Assembly (NCBI GenBank): GCA_944325315.1
Contig: CALVAA010000005.1
Coordinates: forward strand, 49,514-113,513
DNA length: 64,000 nucleotides
DNA from: Candidatus Gastranaerophilales bacterium
GTDB taxonomy: Bacteria; Cyanobacteriota; Vampirovibrionia; Gastranaerophilales; Gastranaerophilaceae
Reading direction: 5' to 3'
The notes under the pieces: generated by a model
The model's input: only the letters and a program-made list of their open reading frames with translations
What the model was told of the DNA's origin: nothing
Database searches by the model: none
Program-made: the position numbers and the translations under genes
Shown: positions 14,621 to 24,658 of the stretch, one piece after another
How positions within the stretch are numbered: position 1 is the stretch's first letter
Layout of the letters: each line of letters begins with the position of its first letter

Positions 14621-14645
14621 AAAAAGAGGTCTCAGGCCTCTTTTT
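14621..14645. terminator. Terminator shared by rpsU and the opposing nuclease gene
   Basis: An A-run plus GAGG (14621-14629) pairs with CCTC plus a T-run (14637-14645) around a short loop. The T-run serves rpsU on the plus strand and the A-run becomes a T-run for the leftward nuclease gene, whose stop codon lies inside the hairpin. Confidence 0.75.
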
Positions 14646-15231
14646 TTGCATTGTAATATTTTAAAACAATTTCATCAATTCTTTTTTTATAAGTCTTTGA
14701 ATCACTGAACTCAACATCAATATAGTTTAGTTTTTCAATAGACAAATATCTTAACTTAATTTTTTCACTTTTTTGAATTCTTGAAAAGCAATAGAGGTAA
14801 ACTATACTTTGTAAGTCATCTTTTGGGTTTTTGGGAAGGTTTAGGGTTTTCCAATCATAGATTATATATTCATCTTCTTTTTTATAAATTGCGTCAAATC
14901 TTCCCGTTAAACAATAAAAGCTATTATTTAAGGCTTCTTTTGTTAAAAAAGAGTATTCTGTTTGAATAAAATTTTCTTTTTTATCTTCTAAAATCTTTTT
15001 CAAATTATTCCAGGTTTGTCTTTCGTTATCATCTAAAACATCTTCCAGTTTTTTAATATCAAAACCCTTCAAATAGAAGCAAATAAGGCTGTGAAATTTT
15101 TGTCCTAATTGTGCTCTTTTTTCTTTTTTTGCCCAAAAAAGATTATAGATGTATCTGTCCATGAATTCTTCCAAGCTTTTATCAAGCACTTTAAGAGAAT
15201 TAGAGCTAAAAGTGTCAATTTGTTTTGTCAT
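14632..15231 (-). CDS. PD-(D/E)XK nuclease, RecB/AddB-like, stand-alone
   Basis: A 199-residue nuclease of the RecB family. The ordered motifs are present: an early His (GQKFHSLI, about 44-51), GRFDAIY with the metal-binding Asp (about 112), YDWKT giving the D-x-K pair (about 125-127) and a following Gln in LQSIVYLY (about 140). The gene overlaps the upstream helicase by 17 bases, so the two are translated together. In AddAB and RecBCD this domain is fused to the C-terminus of a helicase subunit; here it is a separate protein. Cas4 is an alternative family name, but there is no Cys cluster and no CRISPR nearby. Confidence 0.8.
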   Translation of the reverse strand: MTKQIDTFSSNSLKVLDKSLEEFMDRYIYNLFWAKKEKRAQLGQKFHSLICFYLKGFDIKKLEDVLDDNERQTWNNLKKILEDKKENFIQTEYSFLTKEALNNSFYCLTGRFDAIYKKEDEYIIYDWKTLNLPKNPKDDLQSIVYLYCFSRIQKSEKIKLRYLSIEKLNYIDVEFSDSKTYKKRIDEIVLKYYNAKKEA

Positions 15232-18200
15232 TGTAAACCTCTTTTAAAATTTCGCTCACCTCAAATTTTTTCACTTTAGAAAAGATTTTATAATTAATGG
15301 CGCTTGTAAGAAAAAGTTTCTTTTTTGCCCTTGTTATGCCTACATAAATTAGTCTGTAGTTTTCTTCTATAATATCTTTTTTAAGTTCTTCATCTGTTTT
15401 TGGGTGCTTCTTTACTTTTTCATTGAATTTAGAATTTTCTTTTAAGGTATATTTTTTAGTATCTAAGCACAAGTTATCTTGAGTTAATTCCGGTATAAAA
15501 ACATAATCAAACTCGTCTCCTTTAGACTTGTGCAGAGTCATGATTTGTACTGATGAATTTTTTTTAGAGTCATCTTCGCTTTGGAAGAACTTGATGTTTG
15601 AAAAGTTATTTTTGTATTGGACCTCTCTTAATTTTTTAACGGTTGCTTCAAAAGTTTTTTGACCGGTGTATATTTTCTGTGCTATGGTTGCAACTAAAGG
15701 AATGTTTACGCTTTGTGGGGTTTTAGAAAAATAATAAGATGAAATTTGATAAACTAAATCATATATTGAAGTGCAGTTTTTGTATAGAAAGTAATTCATG
15801 TCCCATAAAAACTGTTCGTCAAAATTGTCATCTAAAAACAAAGGTGTTTTTAGTTCGTTTGCATATTTTACTGTTGAAAAAGGATATTTTCCAAGCTCAA
15901 AGAGCTCTTGTGCTATAACTTTAGGAATTTTGACATCAAAAGGATTTGAAATATATTCTAAAATCAAAAGACAAATTCTGTAAACAGGATTATTTATTAA
16001 ATTATCGGAATTTTTGTAAGATTTAATCGAATTGTCACATAAAAGCTTGTCCCATTTAGATATTGCATAGTTACTTCTTGTTAAAATTGCAAAAGTTCTA
16101 TCTTTGTCTTCTTGTATTAATTCTTTTATTTTTTTTATTATAAAATCCTGTTCTTCTTTTTCGTCTTCAAATACTTCTTTTCTAACAGCATATTTATCAA
16201 CAATGTTTACGCCCTCAACAGGTTTCATAATTAAATTTGAAAAAGCGTCAGCTTTCTTATTCTTTGCATACTCTACAATGCCATTAGCGCAATCCAAGAC
16301 TCCTGTTGCACATCTTTGGCATCTGTCCATTACAACGTTTTTGGAGCTTTTTATAAATTCTCTAAAACCTTTTACATCTGAATTTGTAAAAGTTGATGTA
16401 ATTGCCTGGTTAATGTCTCCGCAGCGGATAATGTTTTTGTATTTTCCGCCTAAAAGCATAATGAGGTTTTGCTGGGTAAAGCTTGAATCCTGGGCTTCAT
16501 CTTCAATAATTATTTTTGCAAGATTTTGATAGTATTGTCTTACATCTTCATTTTCTTTTAAAAGTTTTAAACTCAATAAAAGTAAATCATCATAATCAAT
16601 AAGATTTTGTTCTTTTAATTTATTATTGTATAAATTAAAAACATTTAAAAATACGCTGTTTTTACATTCAAATTCTCCAAAAGCGCAAAGCTCGTTTTTA
16701 TAGGCAGATATAGCGCTATCGTACAAAGAAGCCTTATCTTGCGATATTCCAAGCGAATATATTATTTCATTTATAATTGCGCTTCTTTTTATTTCATCTA
16801 TTATTTCAAAATCGAAATCCAAATTCAGTTTTGAATAATTATTATTTTCTTTTATTATTCTAAGGGCTAATCCGTGAATGGTTGAAATATTAGGCAATTC
16901 TTCAAGATTAGGGTATTTAGCTTTAATTCTTTCTTTGAAGTTTCTTGCGGCAGATTCCATAAAAGTTAAAACAAAGATATTTTTAGGTTCAATATTGTCT
17001 AAAATTTCTCCCGAGATTATTTTTTCAACAAGTAAAAGCATAATTGTTGTTTTGCCTGAGCCCGCTGTCGCGCTAACGGACATTAAATTGCCTTTGTAAT
17101 TTAAAACTTCTTTCTGGTCTTGCCTTGGAGTAATTGCTTTTATCTGTGCTTTAGTTGTTTCGTTTTTATATTTAAAGTACTTATCAATTCCCGAAAAATT
17201 TTCCAATCCTAATGAATCATAAACACTCGAATAAAGAGTGATATTGTCGGAAAGCAAATATAGCTTGTATAAGATTCTTGCGGTTTTGTCTTTTGTAAGT
17301 TCAATATTATCTTCAAGTTCAAATGTTTCTTTGCTCCAGCTTTTCTGCATTACCCAAGCATTATACAAAGGGCCTATATCTTGTTTTATCCACAAAGAAG
17401 AAGAACAGTCCAATAAAAATTGATATTTTGTTTTGTGTGAATAGTCTATTATTTTTTGCGCTGAAGATACAACAATCGAATCATTATCTATTTCATCATC
17501 TGAAAGCGGATTTTCGGAGATTATCGTGTTTTCAAGCTGGGTTATAATTTCTTTATTTGTAATAGAATCTTGAAAAATTTCTTCAAAATCGTAAATTTGT
17601 TTTAAAAGCTGATTAATTTTAATAATATCTTTTTGTTGTTCACGGTCTAATTCAATAAAATTTTCAACTATATTTAACAATTGGAAGGATAATTTTTCAA
17701 AACGTATATTTTCATATATTTCAACAAGTTTTTGAAAATTTTCAATATTTTTATTTTTAATAAAATCAAAAATATTCGAACCCTTAAAATCTCTTTCCAG
17801 GTGGTATTCTTGTATTGTTTTTATTGCTTCTTGGGGCTTTGAATTTAAAAGTTCAATAAAAATGCCTTTTAAAACATAAGGAGAAATATCTTCATTGTTT
17901 GTATCATTAATGATTTTTAAAAGTTCCAAAAGGTATCCTACCAGTTTGTTTTGATTTAGTTTTTCACTTTTATTTAAAAAATTGAATTTTAAATTAGACT
18001 GTTCAAACAAACTTTTTATAAATTCATCGTTTATTGGCGTGACAACGCAAATTTCACTTGGTTTTATACCATTTTTTAATAGACTTTTAATGTCATAAAT
18101 AACTTTTTCGACCATTTCATTGCGCTTTAAAAAGCTTTTGGTCTTAATGTTATCTAATTCTATTTGTTCATTGTTTCTTATAAAATTTAAGATTTTTTGT

Positions 18201-19009
18201 GCATTTTTTGTTTTTTGGCTTTCATCATTTAGTTTTATTGCTTTTTCATTTAAAAATTCTTCAAAATCAATGTTTATTGCACCCAAATACCCCAGCCTGG
18301 ATGAGCCAAGCGAATCGTATCCTATGAAAAATTTTTTAACGGTTGATTTAATTGCTTTTAAATAAGCATAAACTGCAGGCGTAATTTCATCGGCGTCATC
18401 TATAAAAACAAAAGAAAAGGGGTTTTTAGTTTTTTTATACAGAAGTTCAAAAAGATTAATCTGGCGAATATAGTCAAATGCTCTTTTTTCAATTGTTTTA
18501 ATTTTATATTTATTTATTGCACTTTGAATTTCTTCGCTGTAACTTTCATTTAAGATTTTTGTTCTTTTGTCAACTTCTTCTTTTGATAAATTGTTAAAAT
18601 TAATCAATGAATTTCTTCTTAAAAGCTGGTGCAAAAGACTTGTTTTAGAATTGTACCCCTTAAAATCAACTTCTTTTATGCATTGCTTAAAAATATACTG
18701 GCTTACTTCCAGTCCGCATAAATTTGGACTAATTTTTCTTCCAATATCGCTTTTAATGGTGTTTTCAATTATTACCCAATTTTCAAGTATATAATTATAA
18801 ATTAATCCTGAAAAACTGTAGACTTTTATTGAGCCGATGTTTCCTATTGGGGATTTTTCTTTTATTTGTTCTATAAAGTCTTGCTTTTTTTTGGAATTTT
18901 GCACTAAAACAAGGATATCCTTGCAATCAACCCCCTTTTTCAGAAGATTTAAGTATTCTTCCAGTAAAATTTCAGAGCGTTTTGAGTTTGAATTGGCATT
19001 AATTAGCAT
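15215..19009 (-). CDS. UvrD/AddA-type helicase with an N-terminal degenerate helicase (AddB-like) half
   Basis: A 1264-residue SF1A helicase. The C-terminal half has a complete motor: Q-motif-like PRQDQKEVL, Walker A ATAGSGKTT near 650, Walker B IIEDEAQD near 836, MTLHKSKGDEFDYVF near 1156 and YVGITRAKKKL near 1223. The first 600 residues also look like a helicase but are decayed: a Walker-B-like FVFIDDADE near 200 and a late VVSSAQK segment remain, while the expected Walker A near the N-terminus reads NANSNSKRS. One inactive and one active motor in a single chain plus a separate nuclease next door suggests an AddAB/RecBCD-like end-processing complex. It follows priA by four bases. Confidence 0.82.
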   Translation of the reverse strand: MLINANSNSKRSEILLEEYLNLLKKGVDCKDILVLVQNSKKKQDFIEQIKEKSPIGNIGSIKVYSFSGLIYNYILENWVIIENTIKSDIGRKISPNLCGLEVSQYIFKQCIKEVDFKGYNSKTSLLHQLLRRNSLINFNNLSKEEVDKRTKILNESYSEEIQSAINKYKIKTIEKRAFDYIRQINLFELLYKKTKNPFSFVFIDDADEITPAVYAYLKAIKSTVKKFFIGYDSLGSSRLGYLGAINIDFEEFLNEKAIKLNDESQKTKNAQKILNFIRNNEQIELDNIKTKSFLKRNEMVEKVIYDIKSLLKNGIKPSEICVVTPINDEFIKSLFEQSNLKFNFLNKSEKLNQNKLVGYLLELLKIINDTNNEDISPYVLKGIFIELLNSKPQEAIKTIQEYHLERDFKGSNIFDFIKNKNIENFQKLVEIYENIRFEKLSFQLLNIVENFIELDREQQKDIIKINQLLKQIYDFEEIFQDSITNKEIITQLENTIISENPLSDDEIDNDSIVVSSAQKIIDYSHKTKYQFLLDCSSSLWIKQDIGPLYNAWVMQKSWSKETFELEDNIELTKDKTARILYKLYLLSDNITLYSSVYDSLGLENFSGIDKYFKYKNETTKAQIKAITPRQDQKEVLNYKGNLMSVSATAGSGKTTIMLLLVEKIISGEILDNIEPKNIFVLTFMESAARNFKERIKAKYPNLEELPNISTIHGLALRIIKENNNYSKLNLDFDFEIIDEIKRSAIINEIIYSLGISQDKASLYDSAISAYKNELCAFGEFECKNSVFLNVFNLYNNKLKEQNLIDYDDLLLLSLKLLKENEDVRQYYQNLAKIIIEDEAQDSSFTQQNLIMLLGGKYKNIIRCGDINQAITSTFTNSDVKGFREFIKSSKNVVMDRCQRCATGVLDCANGIVEYAKNKKADAFSNLIMKPVEGVNIVDKYAVRKEVFEDEKEEQDFIIKKIKELIQEDKDRTFAILTRSNYAISKWDKLLCDNSIKSYKNSDNLINNPVYRICLLILEYISNPFDVKIPKVIAQELFELGKYPFSTVKYANELKTPLFLDDNFDEQFLWDMNYFLYKNCTSIYDLVYQISSYYFSKTPQSVNIPLVATIAQKIYTGQKTFEATVKKLREVQYKNNFSNIKFFQSEDDSKKNSSVQIMTLHKSKGDEFDYVFIPELTQDNLCLDTKKYTLKENSKFNEKVKKHPKTDEELKKDIIEENYRLIYVGITRAKKKLFLTSAINYKIFSKVKKFEVSEILKEVYNDKTN

Positions 19010-19013
19010 AATT

Positions 19014-21044
19014 TTATAATATATCAGACGGGTCTATATCGACAACCATTTTTATATCATTTGGCAGTTTTATTGTTTTTAAAAATCTTAAAATTGTCCT
19101 ATGCCCCATAATATCCAGCTTGTTTTTAATAATTATATTATAACGGTATTCTTCTTTAATTCTATAAATCACACATTCGCTCGGGCCTAAAATTAAGATA
19201 TTTTCATCCAAGGATAGTTTTTTTATATAATCCGATAAATGAAGCTCAATTTCACTTGCTGCTTTTTGTGCCCTAAATTCATTTTTAGATGATAAAACTA
19301 TTCTTATCATTTTTGAATAAGGCGGATAATCAAGCATTTGTCTTAATTCATTTTCATTTTCATAAAAAGCTTCGTAGTCTTGCCTTTGAGCATTTTTTAA
19401 GAAAATATTATTTGCATTATAGGTTTGAAAAATTACTTTTCCTTTTTTTTCTCCTCTGCCGGAGCGCCCTGCAACTTGGGTTAAAATTGAAAAACCTCTT
19501 TCTGAACTCCTATAATCAGGTAAATTAAAACTTAAATCAGCATTAATTACCCCAACCAGAGTAACGTTTTTATTATCCAGACCTTTTGCTATCATTTGAG
19601 TTCCGATTAGGATGTTTGTTTTTCCTTGTTTAAATCTTTTTAAAATTTCAATATGTTCATTTTTTTTAGATAAACTGTCTGAATCAAGCCTTTCGATTGT
19701 GTAGTTTGGAAAAATTTCTCTTGCAACGGTTTCTACTTTTTCGCTTCCCAATCCAAAGTGTTCAAGTGCTTCGCTATTGCACTTAGGGCATCTATGGTCT
19801 TTTGTTTCATAGTTACAATAGTGACACTTAAAAGAATCGGTGTTTTTATGATAAATCAAAGGTATTGCGCACTTTTTACACTCTAAAACTTCTCCGCATT
19901 CCATACATTGGGTGTATGAACTATAGCCTCTTCTGTTTATAAGAAAAATTACCTGTTCGCCTTTTTCTATTGTCTTTTTTGTATTTTCAATCAGTGTTCT
20001 TGAAAAAAGAGAAAAGTTTTTTTCAAACCGTTCAACTTTCATATCAATTACAATAACATCAGGCAAGGACATATTATTGTATCTTTGAGTCAGTTTAAAA
20101 AGAGAATTTGTGTTGATTGCTTCATAGTAGCTTTCAATAGAAGGTGTTGCAGACCCTAAAATTATATTAGCATCATAAAGTTTAGCCAATTGTTTTGCAA
20201 CATCTTTAGCATTATATCTTGGATTTGGCATTGTTTGTTTGTAGCTTGAATCGTGTTCTTCATCTATAATTATCAATCCTAAGTCTTTAATAGGAGCAAA
20301 AACGGCACTTCTTGCTCCGAAAAGAATTTTTATTTCGTTATTTCTAAGCCTTTTAAAAGTCTCATACTTTTGAGCTTCCGTTATACTGCTGTGCCAGATT
20401 GCTACTTTTTCAATTCCGAATCTTTCTATTGTTCTCATTGTAAGCTCAGACACAAGGGCAATTTCGGGTGCCAGAAAGATAACATTTTTATTGTTTTGAA
20501 TTGTATCTTCAATTAATTTAAAATAAATTTCAGTTTTGCCTGAGCCTGTAATACCGTATAAAAGTGCTGTTTTGGGGTTAATTCTTTTTATTTCATCATA
20601 AACTTTTTTTTGTTCATCTGTAAGAGTGGTTTTATAGTCTTTTTTTTCTGTTTTGAATATTTCGTTTTTTATTCTTGGTTGTCTATAGTTTTTAAGGTTT
20701 TTTTCAAAAAATTTTTGAACAAGTGCTGTTTTTAAAACAGTTTGAATATCACAAAAGTAATAGTTTGAAACCCATTCTAAAAGTTTTAAGTACTCAAGAG
20801 TGAATAATGGAGTACTTTCTAAAATTTCAGCTATTTCTTTTGCTTTTATTCCTTTTTCAAGATAGGAGCTAAAGCCTACAATGTATCCTACAAGATTTTT
20901 TTTTCTGTTACCAAAAGGAACTGATACTGATTGACCTATTTGAATTTCATCTTTTAAGTTTTCGGGAATTAAATAACTAAAGGTTTTTGAGCCCAACTTA
21001 TTTATATCAACCAGCACAAGGGCATATTTTTTGTCTGCTTCCAT
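19014..21044 (-). CDS. priA: PriA, primosomal replication-restart helicase
   Basis: A 3'-5' helicase that reloads the replisome at abandoned forks. A 3'-DNA-binding domain (about 1-110) precedes the DEAH-like motor: GITGSGKTE near 166, DEEH near 261 and GSATPS near 297. Eight cysteines in the CxxC blocks from CMECGEV to CPKC (about 378-420) form the two zinc sites. IGTQMIAKG and QVAGRSGRG mark the second motor lobe. The 676 residues are typical. Its ATG overlaps the previous stop as TAATG. Confidence 0.95.
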   Translation of the reverse strand: MEADKKYALVLVDINKLGSKTFSYLIPENLKDEIQIGQSVSVPFGNRKKNLVGYIVGFSSYLEKGIKAKEIAEILESTPLFTLEYLKLLEWVSNYYFCDIQTVLKTALVQKFFEKNLKNYRQPRIKNEIFKTEKKDYKTTLTDEQKKVYDEIKRINPKTALLYGITGSGKTEIYFKLIEDTIQNNKNVIFLAPEIALVSELTMRTIERFGIEKVAIWHSSITEAQKYETFKRLRNNEIKILFGARSAVFAPIKDLGLIIIDEEHDSSYKQTMPNPRYNAKDVAKQLAKLYDANIILGSATPSIESYYEAINTNSLFKLTQRYNNMSLPDVIVIDMKVERFEKNFSLFSRTLIENTKKTIEKGEQVIFLINRRGYSSYTQCMECGEVLECKKCAIPLIYHKNTDSFKCHYCNYETKDHRCPKCNSEALEHFGLGSEKVETVAREIFPNYTIERLDSDSLSKKNEHIEILKRFKQGKTNILIGTQMIAKGLDNKNVTLVGVINADLSFNLPDYRSSERGFSILTQVAGRSGRGEKKGKVIFQTYNANNIFLKNAQRQDYEAFYENENELRQMLDYPPYSKMIRIVLSSKNEFRAQKAASEIELHLSDYIKKLSLDENILILGPSECVIYRIKEEYRYNIIIKNKLDIMGHRTILRFLKTIKLPNDIKMVVDIDPSDIL

Positions 21045-21403
21045 TACTTCACAAGCCCCAGAGGTTGGTTTTTAAGCTTTTGGTCGATTAACAAAAACAC
21101 ATTTTGGGCAACAACTGACCCTTGGGAAAAGTCTGAATTTTGCGGTAAAATTTTAATTTCCGTTTGCTTTTGATACCTTTTTGTAACAGTTAAAAGATAG
21201 TATCTCGAGCCGTATAAAAAAAGAATATTTCCGTTATTTGATTGAATTTCTGATATTTCAAACTTGGGACTTGAATTCAAGGCGCTAAGCGCTCCTAAAA
21301 AAGCAACATCAGCATCATAATTATAAATTTTATAGCTTTCTTCAAGCACACTTGCAAAAGCAAAAGATGTTAAAAGAGAAAAAATTAAAATAATTTTTTT
21401 CAT
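21044..21403 (-). CDS. Small exported protein of unknown function in the polA-priA operon
   Basis: Not recognised. The protein starts with a clear Sec signal peptide (MKKIILIFSLLTSFAFA, probable cleavage after AFA) followed by about 100 residues of mixed alpha/beta character. An ATG at 21421 would add six residues, but the ATG at 21403 has GGAG eight bases upstream inside the end of polA and starts two bases after the polA stop, so it is preferred. It is odd that an exported protein sits between polA and priA and overlaps priA by one base, which suggests coupling rather than a shared function. Confidence 0.75.
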   Translation of the reverse strand: MKKIILIFSLLTSFAFASVLEESYKIYNYDADVAFLGALSALNSSPKFEISEIQSNNGNILFLYGSRYYLLTVTKRYQKQTEIKILPQNSDFSQGSVVAQNVFLLIDQKLKNQPLGLVK

Positions 21404-21405
21404 TT

Positions 21406-24030
21406 TTATTTCTCCATCCAAGTTTTTCCGTATCCAACCTCAATTTTTAGAGGAACTTTTAAAGGCTGATTTATTTCCATTGCTTTAATTGTAAGGTTTT
21501 TAACTTCTTCAAATTCATCTTTTAAGACTTCAAGAACCAATTCATCGTGAATTTGAAGAATGATTTTTGATTTGTAGTTTTTTAATTTTGAAAATAAATC
21601 AACCATAGCTATTTTTATAATATCCGCACTTGACCCCTGTAGGGGAGCATTAATTGCAGCACGGGCAGCGAATTCTCTAATGTTTGCATTTCTTGAATGC
21701 AATTCAGCTCCCAGATATCTTCTTCTTCCCCAAAGTGTCTCAACCCAACCGTTTTCTTGAGCGCATTGAAGGGTTTTATTTATGTAAGTTGATATTTTAG
21801 GATAAGTTTCGAAGTATCTGTTTATAAGTTCTTGAGCTTCATAAGGAGAAATTTTTAAAGTTTGAGATAACCCATATTTGGTTTGGCCGTATATTATTCC
21901 AAAATTTACGGTTTTAGCTTTTCTTCTCTGGTCTTTTGTAACTGCTTCAAGAGGTACATTAAAGATTTTTGAAGCCGTAACTTTATGGATATCAACATCA
22001 TCACAAAAAGCCTTTATTAAACTTTCGTCTTCGGAATAATGTGCTAAAAGCCTGAGTTCAACTTGCGAATAATCTGCACTCATGATGATATTATTTTCAT
22101 TGCCGGGAATAAATGCTGCTCTAATTCTGTTTGAAAAATCTGTTCTAATGGGAATATTTTGTAAATTAGGATCAGATGAAGACAATCTTCCCGTTGTGGT
22201 TACTATCTGGTTAAAGTGTGTATGAATTTTTCCGTCGGATTTAATAAGCTTAGGCAGGACTTCTATGTATGTTGTTTTTAATTTCATCAACTGCCTGTGC
22301 TCCAGAATATTTCTTGCAATTTCGTATTCAAAAGCAAGCTCTTCAAGAATTTTGGCATTTGTTGAATAGTTGCCTGATTTTCCTTTCTTTTTGGGTTTTA
22401 TTTGCATTTTGTCAAACAAAACTTCGGCAACTTGTTTTGGAGAATTGATATTAAAAATCTCTTTTGATTCGCTGTATATTTTTTCTTCATAGCTTTTTAT
22501 TTTTTTATCAATTTCATCCCCGATTTCTTTTAGATAGCTGCAATCAAGTTTTACCCCTGTTTTTTCAATATCAGCCAAAACAAAAGCAAGCGGAAGCTCA
22601 ATTTCATTTAAAAGCTTCAATTCTTTTTGACTTAAATTTTTGCTGTAAAAATCGTATAAATCAAATAAATAAGAGCAAAGAAGAAAATAATCTTTTTCAT
22701 CAGGAACAACTTTAAGACACTCATTTATTTGTGTTATCAAATCATGTTTTCTTGATGAATCTTTAATGTAGCTTGATAATTGTACATCTGCTATAACTCC
22801 TTTTATCATTGGATAAAAGCTTTTAACTTCATATGTGATTTTTTTAATTTCAGGGTTTATTATAATTTTTTCGGCATTATTTAAAGGAGTTTTTATTACT
22901 GTATCCTTAAAAGCGATATAGCAATAAGCGTCGTCTTCAAAGTCTTTTAAAAAAGCAATTGTATCACCATTTTTAATTGTATTTAAAAAATTTAAGTCTT
23001 TGGTTTTTATAATCTTTTTTTCTTCCCTTGTTTCTTCTTCTTCTTTTTCTTCCTTTAAATTAAAAAGTCCAAGCTGCTCTTCTTTTGGGGCTTTGAATTC
23101 TACAATATTTTCACAATTTGATTCAACATTAAACAAAGATAAAATTTTATCTATATTTTTTACAAAAGAATAGAATTGTGCTTTGGATAAAAATTCTTTT
23201 ACTTTTTCTTTGTTTGGTCTTGTAAGGCAGGCTTTATCAAAGTCAAATTTGATATCCAAATCATCAACAATTGTTGCTAAAAATTGAGATAAATATGCAT
23301 CTTCCTTTCCTTCTTTTAATTTTTCTTTTAGGGATTTTTTTGTGATGTTTTCAATATTTTCATATATTTTATCTAAAGTTAAATACTCTTTTAAAAGTGT
23401 ACTTGCAGACTTTGGTCCTATTCCTTTAATGCCCGGAATATTATCTGAACTGTCCCCGCAAAGAGCCTTATAGTCTACTATTTGATTCGGATAAACTTCC
23501 ATTTTATTAAATACTTCTTGTTTATTGTATTTAATAATTTCTCCCTTTTGAGGTATTAAAACGTTAATTAAACCGTTATCGTCGATTAATTGGAAACTAT
23601 CTTTGTCGCCTGTTAAAATATAAACTGTATGACCTTCTTTTTTTGCTTGTTTTGCTATTGTCCCTATGACATCATCGCCTTCATAACCTTGCATTGTGTA
23701 TATTGGAATATCAAAAGCGGCTAAACCTTCCTGGATTAAATCAAGCTGGCTTTTTAAAGTGTCAGGCATAGAAAGCCTGTTTGCTTTATAATTTTCATAT
23801 TTTTCAAGTCTGAATGTTGCTTTTGAAACATCGAAAGCGACTGCAATTGAATCTGGTTTTAAGTTTAGTTTTTTATCTTTAAGTAAATCAAATAGAGCCT
23901 TAAAAAACCCAAATACTGCCCAGGTTGGAATATGCTCGGTTGTTTGCATATTGGTTCTTTCAAGCGCAAAAAACATTCTAAAAGCAAGAGCGTGTCCGTC
24001 TATTAAAATTAAAGTCTTTTTATCTTCCAT
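21406..24030 (-). CDS. polA: DNA polymerase I
   Basis: Fills gaps and removes RNA primers. The N-terminal 5'-3' exonuclease (LILIDGHALAFR, GDKDSFQL, CGDSSDNIPGIKGIGPKSA) spans about 1-290. A middle segment (about 320-450) is in the position of the 3'-5' exonuclease but lacks the DxE and YxxxD residues, so proofreading is probably absent, as in Taq and Bacillus enzymes. The polymerase domain has ADYSQVELR near 650, RRKAKTVNFGIIYG near 700 and QIHDELVLEV near 827. At 874 residues it is of normal length. AGAGGA precedes the ATG. Confidence 0.95.
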   Translation of the reverse strand: MEDKKTLILIDGHALAFRMFFALERTNMQTTEHIPTWAVFGFFKALFDLLKDKKLNLKPDSIAVAFDVSKATFRLEKYENYKANRLSMPDTLKSQLDLIQEGLAAFDIPIYTMQGYEGDDVIGTIAKQAKKEGHTVYILTGDKDSFQLIDDNGLINVLIPQKGEIIKYNKQEVFNKMEVYPNQIVDYKALCGDSSDNIPGIKGIGPKSASTLLKEYLTLDKIYENIENITKKSLKEKLKEGKEDAYLSQFLATIVDDLDIKFDFDKACLTRPNKEKVKEFLSKAQFYSFVKNIDKILSLFNVESNCENIVEFKAPKEEQLGLFNLKEEKEEEETREEKKIIKTKDLNFLNTIKNGDTIAFLKDFEDDAYCYIAFKDTVIKTPLNNAEKIIINPEIKKITYEVKSFYPMIKGVIADVQLSSYIKDSSRKHDLITQINECLKVVPDEKDYFLLCSYLFDLYDFYSKNLSQKELKLLNEIELPLAFVLADIEKTGVKLDCSYLKEIGDEIDKKIKSYEEKIYSESKEIFNINSPKQVAEVLFDKMQIKPKKKGKSGNYSTNAKILEELAFEYEIARNILEHRQLMKLKTTYIEVLPKLIKSDGKIHTHFNQIVTTTGRLSSSDPNLQNIPIRTDFSNRIRAAFIPGNENNIIMSADYSQVELRLLAHYSEDESLIKAFCDDVDIHKVTASKIFNVPLEAVTKDQRRKAKTVNFGIIYGQTKYGLSQTLKISPYEAQELINRYFETYPKISTYINKTLQCAQENGWVETLWGRRRYLGAELHSRNANIREFAARAAINAPLQGSSADIIKIAMVDLFSKLKNYKSKIILQIHDELVLEVLKDEFEEVKNLTIKAMEINQPLKVPLKIEVGYGKTWMEK

Positions 24031-24052
24031 TTAATCCTCTTTATAATTAAAT

Positions 24053-24658
24053 TTATTGCTTGTTTTTGGCCTGAAGCTTTTTGTTGTATTCAAGCGAGCG
24101 CATATAAGCTTTGTTGTTTTCAAAGTGTTTTTTGTATAGTTTTTCAAAATTATCCTGAGAGTATTTATAGTTGTCAAAAGTAAGCATTATAGCCTTGTGA
24201 GCTCCTAAAATTGCAAAGGGAGTTACGGCAAATATTGTTATAATTGCAACAATTAAATGAACAATAAGGCTTCTTTTTTTATGTGTATTTTTTTGAATAT
24301 CTTCAAGATCAATCTTTTTTTGAATAGCATCGTTAATATATGCACTTCTTTCATCGGTTGTAAGGTTATCTATGTATGGAACAAAGTCTTTTGAAACATA
24401 AAAAATATATTTTTTCACAACAGAATTATCTTCACTGAACTCTTCCCATTGGTTTAGTTCTTCCGTGTGAATAATTTCTTTTGGAGCTTCGGAAGCATCC
24501 TGTTTTTCTTCTTGTTGTTTTAAAAGTTCTTCTTCAATTTCTTTTTGTTCTTGTTCAACTAAATCTTGTTCCAATTCAGGGATTTGAGCTTCTGCTTCAT
24601 CATCAAAATCCTTAAAATCTTCAGCAAAATTTTCTTCTTTTCTATCGTTTGTTTCCAC
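24053..24658 (-). CDS. Acidic single-pass membrane protein, unknown function
   Basis: Not recognised. The first 75 residues are rich in Glu, Gln and Asp and probably disordered. Residues about 75-125 form a compact part (WEEFSED to QKKIDLEDI), and one membrane segment follows at about 130-155 (LIVHLIVAIITIFAVTPFAIL). The rest is a short basic tail. There is no signal peptide, so the acidic part is probably cytoplasmic. The GTG start at 24658 is chosen because AGGAG stands seven bases upstream. First gene of the leftward polA-priA-helicase unit, 22 bases before polA. Confidence 0.7.
   Translation of the reverse strand: METNDRKEENFAEDFKDFDDEAEAQIPELEQDLVEQEQKEIEEELLKQQEEKQDASEAPKEIIHTEELNQWEEFSEDNSVVKKYIFYVSKDFVPYIDNLTTDERSAYINDAIQKKIDLEDIQKNTHKKRSLIVHLIVAIITIFAVTPFAILGAHKAIMLTFDNYKYSQDNFEKLYKKHFENNKAYMRSLEYNKKLQAKNKQ

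Follow-up and report, generated by a model that had tools for sequence, protein, structure and literature searches.

A fused double helicase and a free nuclease as a candidate machine for processing DNA double-strand ends in non-photosynthetic Cyanobacteriota

We analysed a stretch of 64,000 nucleotides (the window) from contig CALVAA010000005.1 of a Candidatus Gastranaerophilales bacterium, where a minus-strand gene for a 1264-residue fused double-helicase protein (15215..19009, from the list of open reading frames (ORFs), family searches and motif alignment) is followed by a gene for a free 199-residue PD-(D/E)XK nuclease (14632..15231, minus strand). We propose that this helicase and nuclease probably work together as an AddAB/RecBCD-like machine for processing DNA double-strand ends, with its domains divided in a new way; from sequence comparison and structure models we give this reading a probability of about two in three. 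It is supported by the domains, by the pattern of intact and lost motifs, by conservation and co-occurrence, by frequent overlap of the two genes, and by a split state of the same parts in oxygenic cyanobacteria. The original prediction, made from the DNA letters, had described a dead-looking AddB-like first motor fused to a live UvrD-type motor with the nuclease left free, and this arrangement was supported, the nuclease co-occurring with the helicase and usually lying next to it.

Two motors and a nuclease

Residues 627-1264 (motor 2; 15215..17131, minus strand) matched PF00580 at 1.8e-43 together with UvrD_C, and carried the motifs of helicase superfamily 1A (SF1A), with the UvrD motor at residues 630-1236. 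Motif residues were invariant in 14 aligned sequences, and the P-loop ATAGSGKT (residues 647-654; 17048..17071, minus strand) fitted the pattern in 78/78 distinct proteins examined. With this match and these motifs, motor 2 appears to be the active motor that had been predicted. It formed its own clade in a maximum-likelihood tree (100/100), apart from PcrA, from AddA-like sequences and from the single-chain helicase-nuclease of the same genome, and its clade had a Shimodaira-Hasegawa-like approximate likelihood ratio (SH-aLRT) of 100 in a second tree, the AddA-like sequences in both being from this phylum only and on long branches. Motors 1 and 2 divided alike in the maximum-likelihood tree (families f9, f14 and f15 versus the order), as a single old fusion would predict; the AddB-like rows of that tree had long branches and are unsafe. 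A family scan found no PDDEXK domain in the 1264-residue protein.

Residues 1-626 (motor 1; 17132..19009, minus strand) lacked a P-loop (MLINANSNSKRS) and carried the Walker-B-like stretch FIDDADE (residues 202-208; 18386..18406, minus strand), so that the description of this half as a decayed helicase without Walker A could be read directly in the sequence. The lost P-loop site lies at residues 5-12 (18974..18997, minus strand), where some aligned relatives read GPLKSGKT. The sole family signal for this half was a weak match to PF00580 (5e-5, motor 1 alone), and a profile of 49 relatives matched PcrA structures in the PDB at 6.5e-6 over about 350 residues. An AlphaFold2 model of residues 1-626 (predicted local distance difference test, pLDDT, 89.6; predicted template modelling score, pTM, 0.87) had a UvrD-type fold along its full length and matched UvrD, AdnB, AddB and AddA by Foldseek and VIA-align. 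AdnB gave the tightest long superposition, with a root-mean-square deviation (rmsd) of 4.3 over 569 residues, while AddB covered the most residues (569-577 at rmsd 5.3-5.5), and hhalign matched motor 1 to an AddB-like profile at probability 98.2. The PcrA profile match, the model and the structural matches speak against a motor 1 that aligns with no helicase fold, the outcome on which the original prediction would have failed; for residues 1-626 the prediction is a complete yet inactive-looking UvrD/AddB-type fold.

We assigned the motifs of motor 1 ourselves from an alignment with the AddA-like profile and from the 49-row alignment of relatives. The Walker-B region was mostly DDxDE, with D207 and E208 present in 49/49 rows, and the glutamine of motif II or motif III was absent across all of them. 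At the motif-VI arginine position 42 of the 49 rows had Glu or Asp and none had Arg. Judged by these motifs, motor 1 would be inactive. The P-loop was intact by pattern in 15/49 rows (families f2, f3, f4, f7, f9, f14 and f15, and one f1 genome) and was also retained in family f5 (L068); it has decayed to SNKT, SEKT or SDKT across a large part of f1, and f6 and the window's genus have lost it. The predicted loss of Walker A therefore holds for the window but not for the protein everywhere. Motor 1 was probably already a weak or dead motor, as AddB is, and ATP binding was then lost in some lineages.

The nuclease is a PDDEXK_1 protein (PF12705, 4.9e-10) encoded by a gene of its own, and the claim of a free nuclease with intact residues was upheld: H47, E92, D113, D126, K128, Q141 and Y145 were invariant in 20/20 aligned sequences and satisfy the residue set of the RecB family (H, D, DxK, QxxxY). 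Its AlphaFold2 model (pLDDT 94.8) matched Cas4-family ACE1 and the nuclease of AdnA in Foldseek, and its profile matched the AddB-like nuclease domain. Cysteines of the iron-sulphur (Fe-S) type, one N-terminal and three C-terminal, were present in 14 of the 20 aligned nucleases (L059, L060 and L138, for example), whereas this four-cysteine motif (AddB/Cas4/Dna2 type) was absent from the window nuclease, from all four aligned from its genus, and from L149 and L150. Relatives in most other families examined keep both the motor-1 P-loop and these cysteines; the window's genus has neither.

Distribution in the class and the split form in oxygenic cyanobacteria

The fused helicase was found in 36/38 relatives besides its own genome (1.81 Mb, 34 contigs), so the protein is not a product of chance; its nearest named relatives are Gastranaerophilales. 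We sampled 239 genomes of the non-photosynthetic class, 157 of them from one family, with E-value cut-offs of 1e-10 (helicase) and 1e-12 (nuclease). The helicase occurred in 169 and the nuclease in 160; both were present in 159, the helicase alone in 10, the nuclease alone in one (a genome 81% complete), and neither in 69. Within the family the fused helicase was found in 154/157 genomes, mostly as a single match each, and helicase and nuclease were both absent from G164, G239 and G241. In the window's genus the nuclease adjoined the helicase in 23/24 loci, and in G007 it is encoded elsewhere in the genome. Beyond the genus adjacency was common, though not universal, and the upstream genes differed; for several of the fetched ORFs the start codon is uncertain, so that abutting and overlapping genes look alike there. 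The pairing of the fusion with its free nuclease is old.

The best 80 of 362 confirmed loci in named genomes belonged to Gastranaerophilales, Melainabacteria, similar candidate genera, Cyanobacteria, unclassified bacteria and one Muribaculaceae. A Muribaculaceae-labelled contig bearing the fused gene (L245) is probably mis-binned. In one genome a second copy (L154, G210:C18) lay beside ORFs that looked phage-derived by eye (amidase-like, terminase-like).

Searching the phylum with motor 1 matched 307/386 genomes; among the matches listed, 134 came from outside the class (7.5e-11 to 2.8e-58), and 16 of these genomes were then searched with the whole fused profile. Each of the 16 had one protein of the motor-2 clade (678-840 residues as read), which a quick, long-branched tree set apart from PcrA and AddA-like sequences (SH-aLRT 100). 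Motor 1 was a different protein, with an ORF of 673-745 residues read in 14/16 genomes; in G291 and G323 it was matched in the phylum search only. In 9/10 aligned rows its P-loop was intact by eye, and its profile matched AddB-like at probability 99.1. Three unfused motor-1 proteins (two cyanobacterial and that of G277) matched nothing in Pfam or NCBIfam at the thresholds applied, and named relatives are labelled hypothetical or recombinase family protein.

The stand-alone nuclease was found in 16/16 genomes at 54.8-99.5 bits with a profile from linked nucleases of the class, which separates only moderately, given 41.5 bits for G378 and up to 36.6 for other PD-(D/E)XK ORFs; for 22 of the 30 non-carrier genomes in this comparison, status was inferred from absence in the list of motor-1 matches. 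A second profile (A11) was built with 14 carrier nucleases and is circular for those, so we read its scores for sequences outside it: 113 (L385) and 273 bits (L386) in carriers, and 194 (L387, G341) and 218 bits (L388, G378) in genomes with no motor-1 match. Among eight loci scored from family f41, which has small genomes, no nuclease of this type was found. The three genes of G277 abut and follow the order of the fused system (motor 1, motor 2, nuclease); the start codon of the G277 nuclease is uncertain enough that abutting and overlapping cannot be told apart. G291 has a 14-base overlap between motor 2 and nuclease. The three genes lie apart in the other oxygenic genomes read.

The simplest account is that pseudo-motor, motor and nuclease are three proteins in oxygenic cyanobacteria and two fused motors plus a nuclease in the non-photosynthetic class, to which the helicase fusion seems specific. 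Since oxygenic cyanobacteria have the parts apart, they were probably separate genes first and became fused in the class, which runs opposite to the split of an AddAB-like enzyme that had been proposed. We consider it an evenly balanced question whether the three parts supply the RecBCD/AddAB counterpart that many Cyanobacteriota seem to lack. On that reading the oxygenic members would have an end-processing enzyme of three subunits, which helicase fusion turned into two chains in the non-photosynthetic class, with later loss of the motor-1 P-loop and the nuclease Fe-S cluster in some lineages.

Known systems and alternative explanations

The system resembles Bacillus-type AddAB in having one inactivated SF1 module (the N-terminal half of AddB), an active UvrD-type motor and a RecB-family nuclease, which in many relatives, though not in the window, bears Fe-S-type cysteines. 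The helicase module of AddB is described as inactivated (PMC4824097). The architecture differs. AddA joins a UvrD motor and a nuclease in one chain, and AddB a helicase-like half and an Fe-S nuclease, whereas here both motors share one chain, which has no PDDEXK domain, and a single nuclease without the cysteines is encoded by a separate gene. Motor 2 also lies outside the AddA-like clade of the phylum, and the AddA and AddB cut-offs were not reached. A simple fusion of AddA and AddB is rejected on that position and on the lack of fused nucleases.

In RecBCD the dead helicase module is RecC, which stands beside a live UvrD-type motor, and the one active nuclease is that of RecB; the window proteins share a dead-looking module beside a live motor and one nuclease; they differ in that the nuclease is not fused to the motor and no RecD-type gene lies in the window operon. 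AdnAB also has two UvrD-type modules, its AdnB superposes tightly on motor 1 and its AdnA nuclease matches the nuclease model, but each AdnAB chain is a motor plus a nuclease, unlike either window protein. AdnAB has been reported exclusively from Actinobacteria (PMC6452273). Cas4 and ACE1 are likewise free PD-(D/E)XK nucleases of similar size, and CtACE1 was the top Foldseek match and MaACE1 the top PDB profile match (3.9e-7) of the nuclease; the window operon has no CRISPR or Argonaute gene, and ACE1 is unsupported as an orthologue, since L359, a cyanobacterial member, matched no chain in the PDB (E up to 0.01). No description of this fused double-helicase protein was found in a limited collection of titles and abstract openings.

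Several results weigh against the proposed end-processing role. In the PDB the motor-1 profile found PcrA, UvrD and Rep and neither AddB nor RecC (E up to 10), and UvrD led both the Z-scores (29.1; rmsd 9.8 over 544) and the Foldseek E-values. TM-scores (TMq) for AddB (0.63-0.64) and AddA (0.62-0.65) were not separable, and the profile-profile scores that ranked AddB-like first (127, then 104 for PcrA and 94 for AddA-like) rest on shallow alignments of 3 to 8 sequences on the opposite side. Motor 2 fell outside the AddA-like clade in both trees and under every AddA, RecB and PcrA cut-off; the AddA model TIGR02785 scored 86.1 bits on the fused protein (cut-off 707.65), and for AddB (TIGR02773) no model was listed. 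The genome counts are not phylogenetically independent. In all ten helicase-only genomes, from genera g30 and g33, and in carrier G033, the stand-alone nuclease was not detected, and the reverse, a nuclease but no motor-1 match at 1e-10, was seen in G341 and G378. Other helicase-nucleases also coexist with the fused protein: its own genome encodes a 1024-residue single-chain UvrD and PD-(D/E)XK protein with Fe-S-type cysteines (G000:C20:9109-12180; L019:6110-9184), and AddAB-like pairs accompany it in carriers of other families (G029, G075, G040, G064, G106). AddAB-like working is supported by fold, partner and co-occurrence; membership of AddAB fails on architecture, cut-offs and clade.

The 1024-residue protein and the 199-residue nuclease were the only PDDEXK_1 matches in the own genome, and no AddAB- or RecBCD-type pair was found there with PF00580, PF12705 and TIGR02785 (RecC and RecD were not searched). 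This agrees with the predicted lack of a complete enzyme elsewhere, but a simple replacement was not upheld, given the 1024-residue protein and the five carriers with pairs. Strict replacement of AddAB is rejected on account of those pairs; in addition, Synechococcus elongatus is said to encode AddAB (PMC10269773). The 1024-residue type occurred in 24/24 genomes of the genus and in 5/15 genomes of other families in the order. Neighbouring AddAB-like pairs were also seen in non-carriers G063, G045 and G057. Only the G063 pair matched the AddA and AddB models strongly, both below cut-offs, in a scan that left out L208, L210 and L220; the other pairs were named from a UvrD-type chain beside one that bears a nuclease, and there are AddB-like chains among them that no AddB model matches. 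Searches of the drafts G024, G025, G030 and G031 (150 to 410 contigs) turned up no further PDDEXK_1 helicase-nuclease. In the G029 pair (L213:2974-8389) the UvrD-type chain seems nuclease-free and its neighbour bears the nuclease, another division of domains within the class. The own genome also encodes a 961-residue protein (L020:6491-9376; G000:C22) in which what seems to be a PHP-type N-terminal domain with a zinc ribbon is joined to a UvrD helicase, an apparently EndoQ-like combination.

If the two proteins do process ends, motor 2 would be the part that loads at the end of the DNA and moves along one of its strands. The role of motor 1 would match that of AddB and RecC: hydrolysing no ATP, it would guide or read the strand once unwound. 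The free nuclease would bind at the position that the fused nuclease occupies in AddB or AdnA, and its cutting would provide RecA with a 3' tail.

An unlikely alternative is that the fused protein is a UvrD/Rep-like fork helicase that acts with PolA and PriA at stalled forks, its first module being regulatory or for docking and the nuclease trimming flaps or gaps rather than serving as an AddB-type partner. The NCBIfam models that score motor 2 highest are indeed PcrA (177 bits) and Rep (161 bits), and family matches bear out polA (21406..24030, minus strand) and priA (19014..21044, minus strand) as upstream neighbours in the operon, priA adjoining the helicase in 20/24 loci of the genus. Of 11 further genomes in the family, however, only L150 shared the polA-priA linkage, and other families looked at have different neighbours, so that a conserved polA-priA operon beyond the genus and L150 is rejected. 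As this linkage is local, the replication-restart unit that had been proposed is weakly supported. Motor 2 also groups outside PcrA, and the partner that recurs belongs to the RecB family of nucleases and is usually there even where unlinked.

Less probable still is a role in defence, in which foreign linear DNA would be degraded by Gabija-like or RecBCD-like phage restriction, with repair secondary. PADLOC GajB models match motor 2 (2.5e-47), as expected because GajB is itself a UvrD-type helicase, and the remaining PADLOC matches (Cas4 and one RTasHel) are likewise ones that such domains would give anyway. Parts are lost or unlinked in some lineages, but no GajA-type partner was found among the six operon proteins scanned, and the near-uniform presence in the sampled family, mostly one match each, is unlike that of patchy defence genes. 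We give least weight to separate action of helicase and nuclease, with co-occurrence due only to shared vertical inheritance and operon packing: the genes are unlinked in several families and most oxygenic cyanobacteria read, and carriers without the nuclease exist, but joint absence in three genomes of a family that mostly has both, overlapping helicase-nuclease order in distant lineages, and the nuclease's matches to AddB-like and AdnA nucleases argue against it.

Neighbouring genes and significance

From 24658 to 14632 the window carries six minus-strand genes, of which the helicase and the nuclease come last. The ORF list confirmed the predicted coordinates of these two and the 17 bases that they share, and the predicted gaps (22, 2, -1, 4 and -17) were reproduced provided that the 125-residue ORF between polA and priA (21044-21421, minus strand) begins at an inner ATG. 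This ORF encodes an exported-looking protein of about 120 residues with no convincing family match, and related ones occur at L066, L071, L073 and L150. Upstream of polA an ORF (24053-24658, minus strand) encodes an acidic 201-residue protein with a single membrane-like segment by eye; a 113-residue ORF akin to it (2e-8) lies about 2 kb past the helicase in L057.

A comparative survey describes recBCD as less conserved in cyanobacteria, with most strains of P. marinus and several of marine Synechococcus carrying it (PMC5101192); for Synechocystis, studies of how double-strand breaks are repaired have been called limited (PMC11063404). How break ends are prepared in many cyanobacteria is poorly known, and the conserved three-part candidate could be tested by gene deletion in transformable cyanobacteria. 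The intact, decaying and lost P-loops within one family would represent stages in the change from helicase to pseudo-helicase, the step thought to underlie AddB and RecC.

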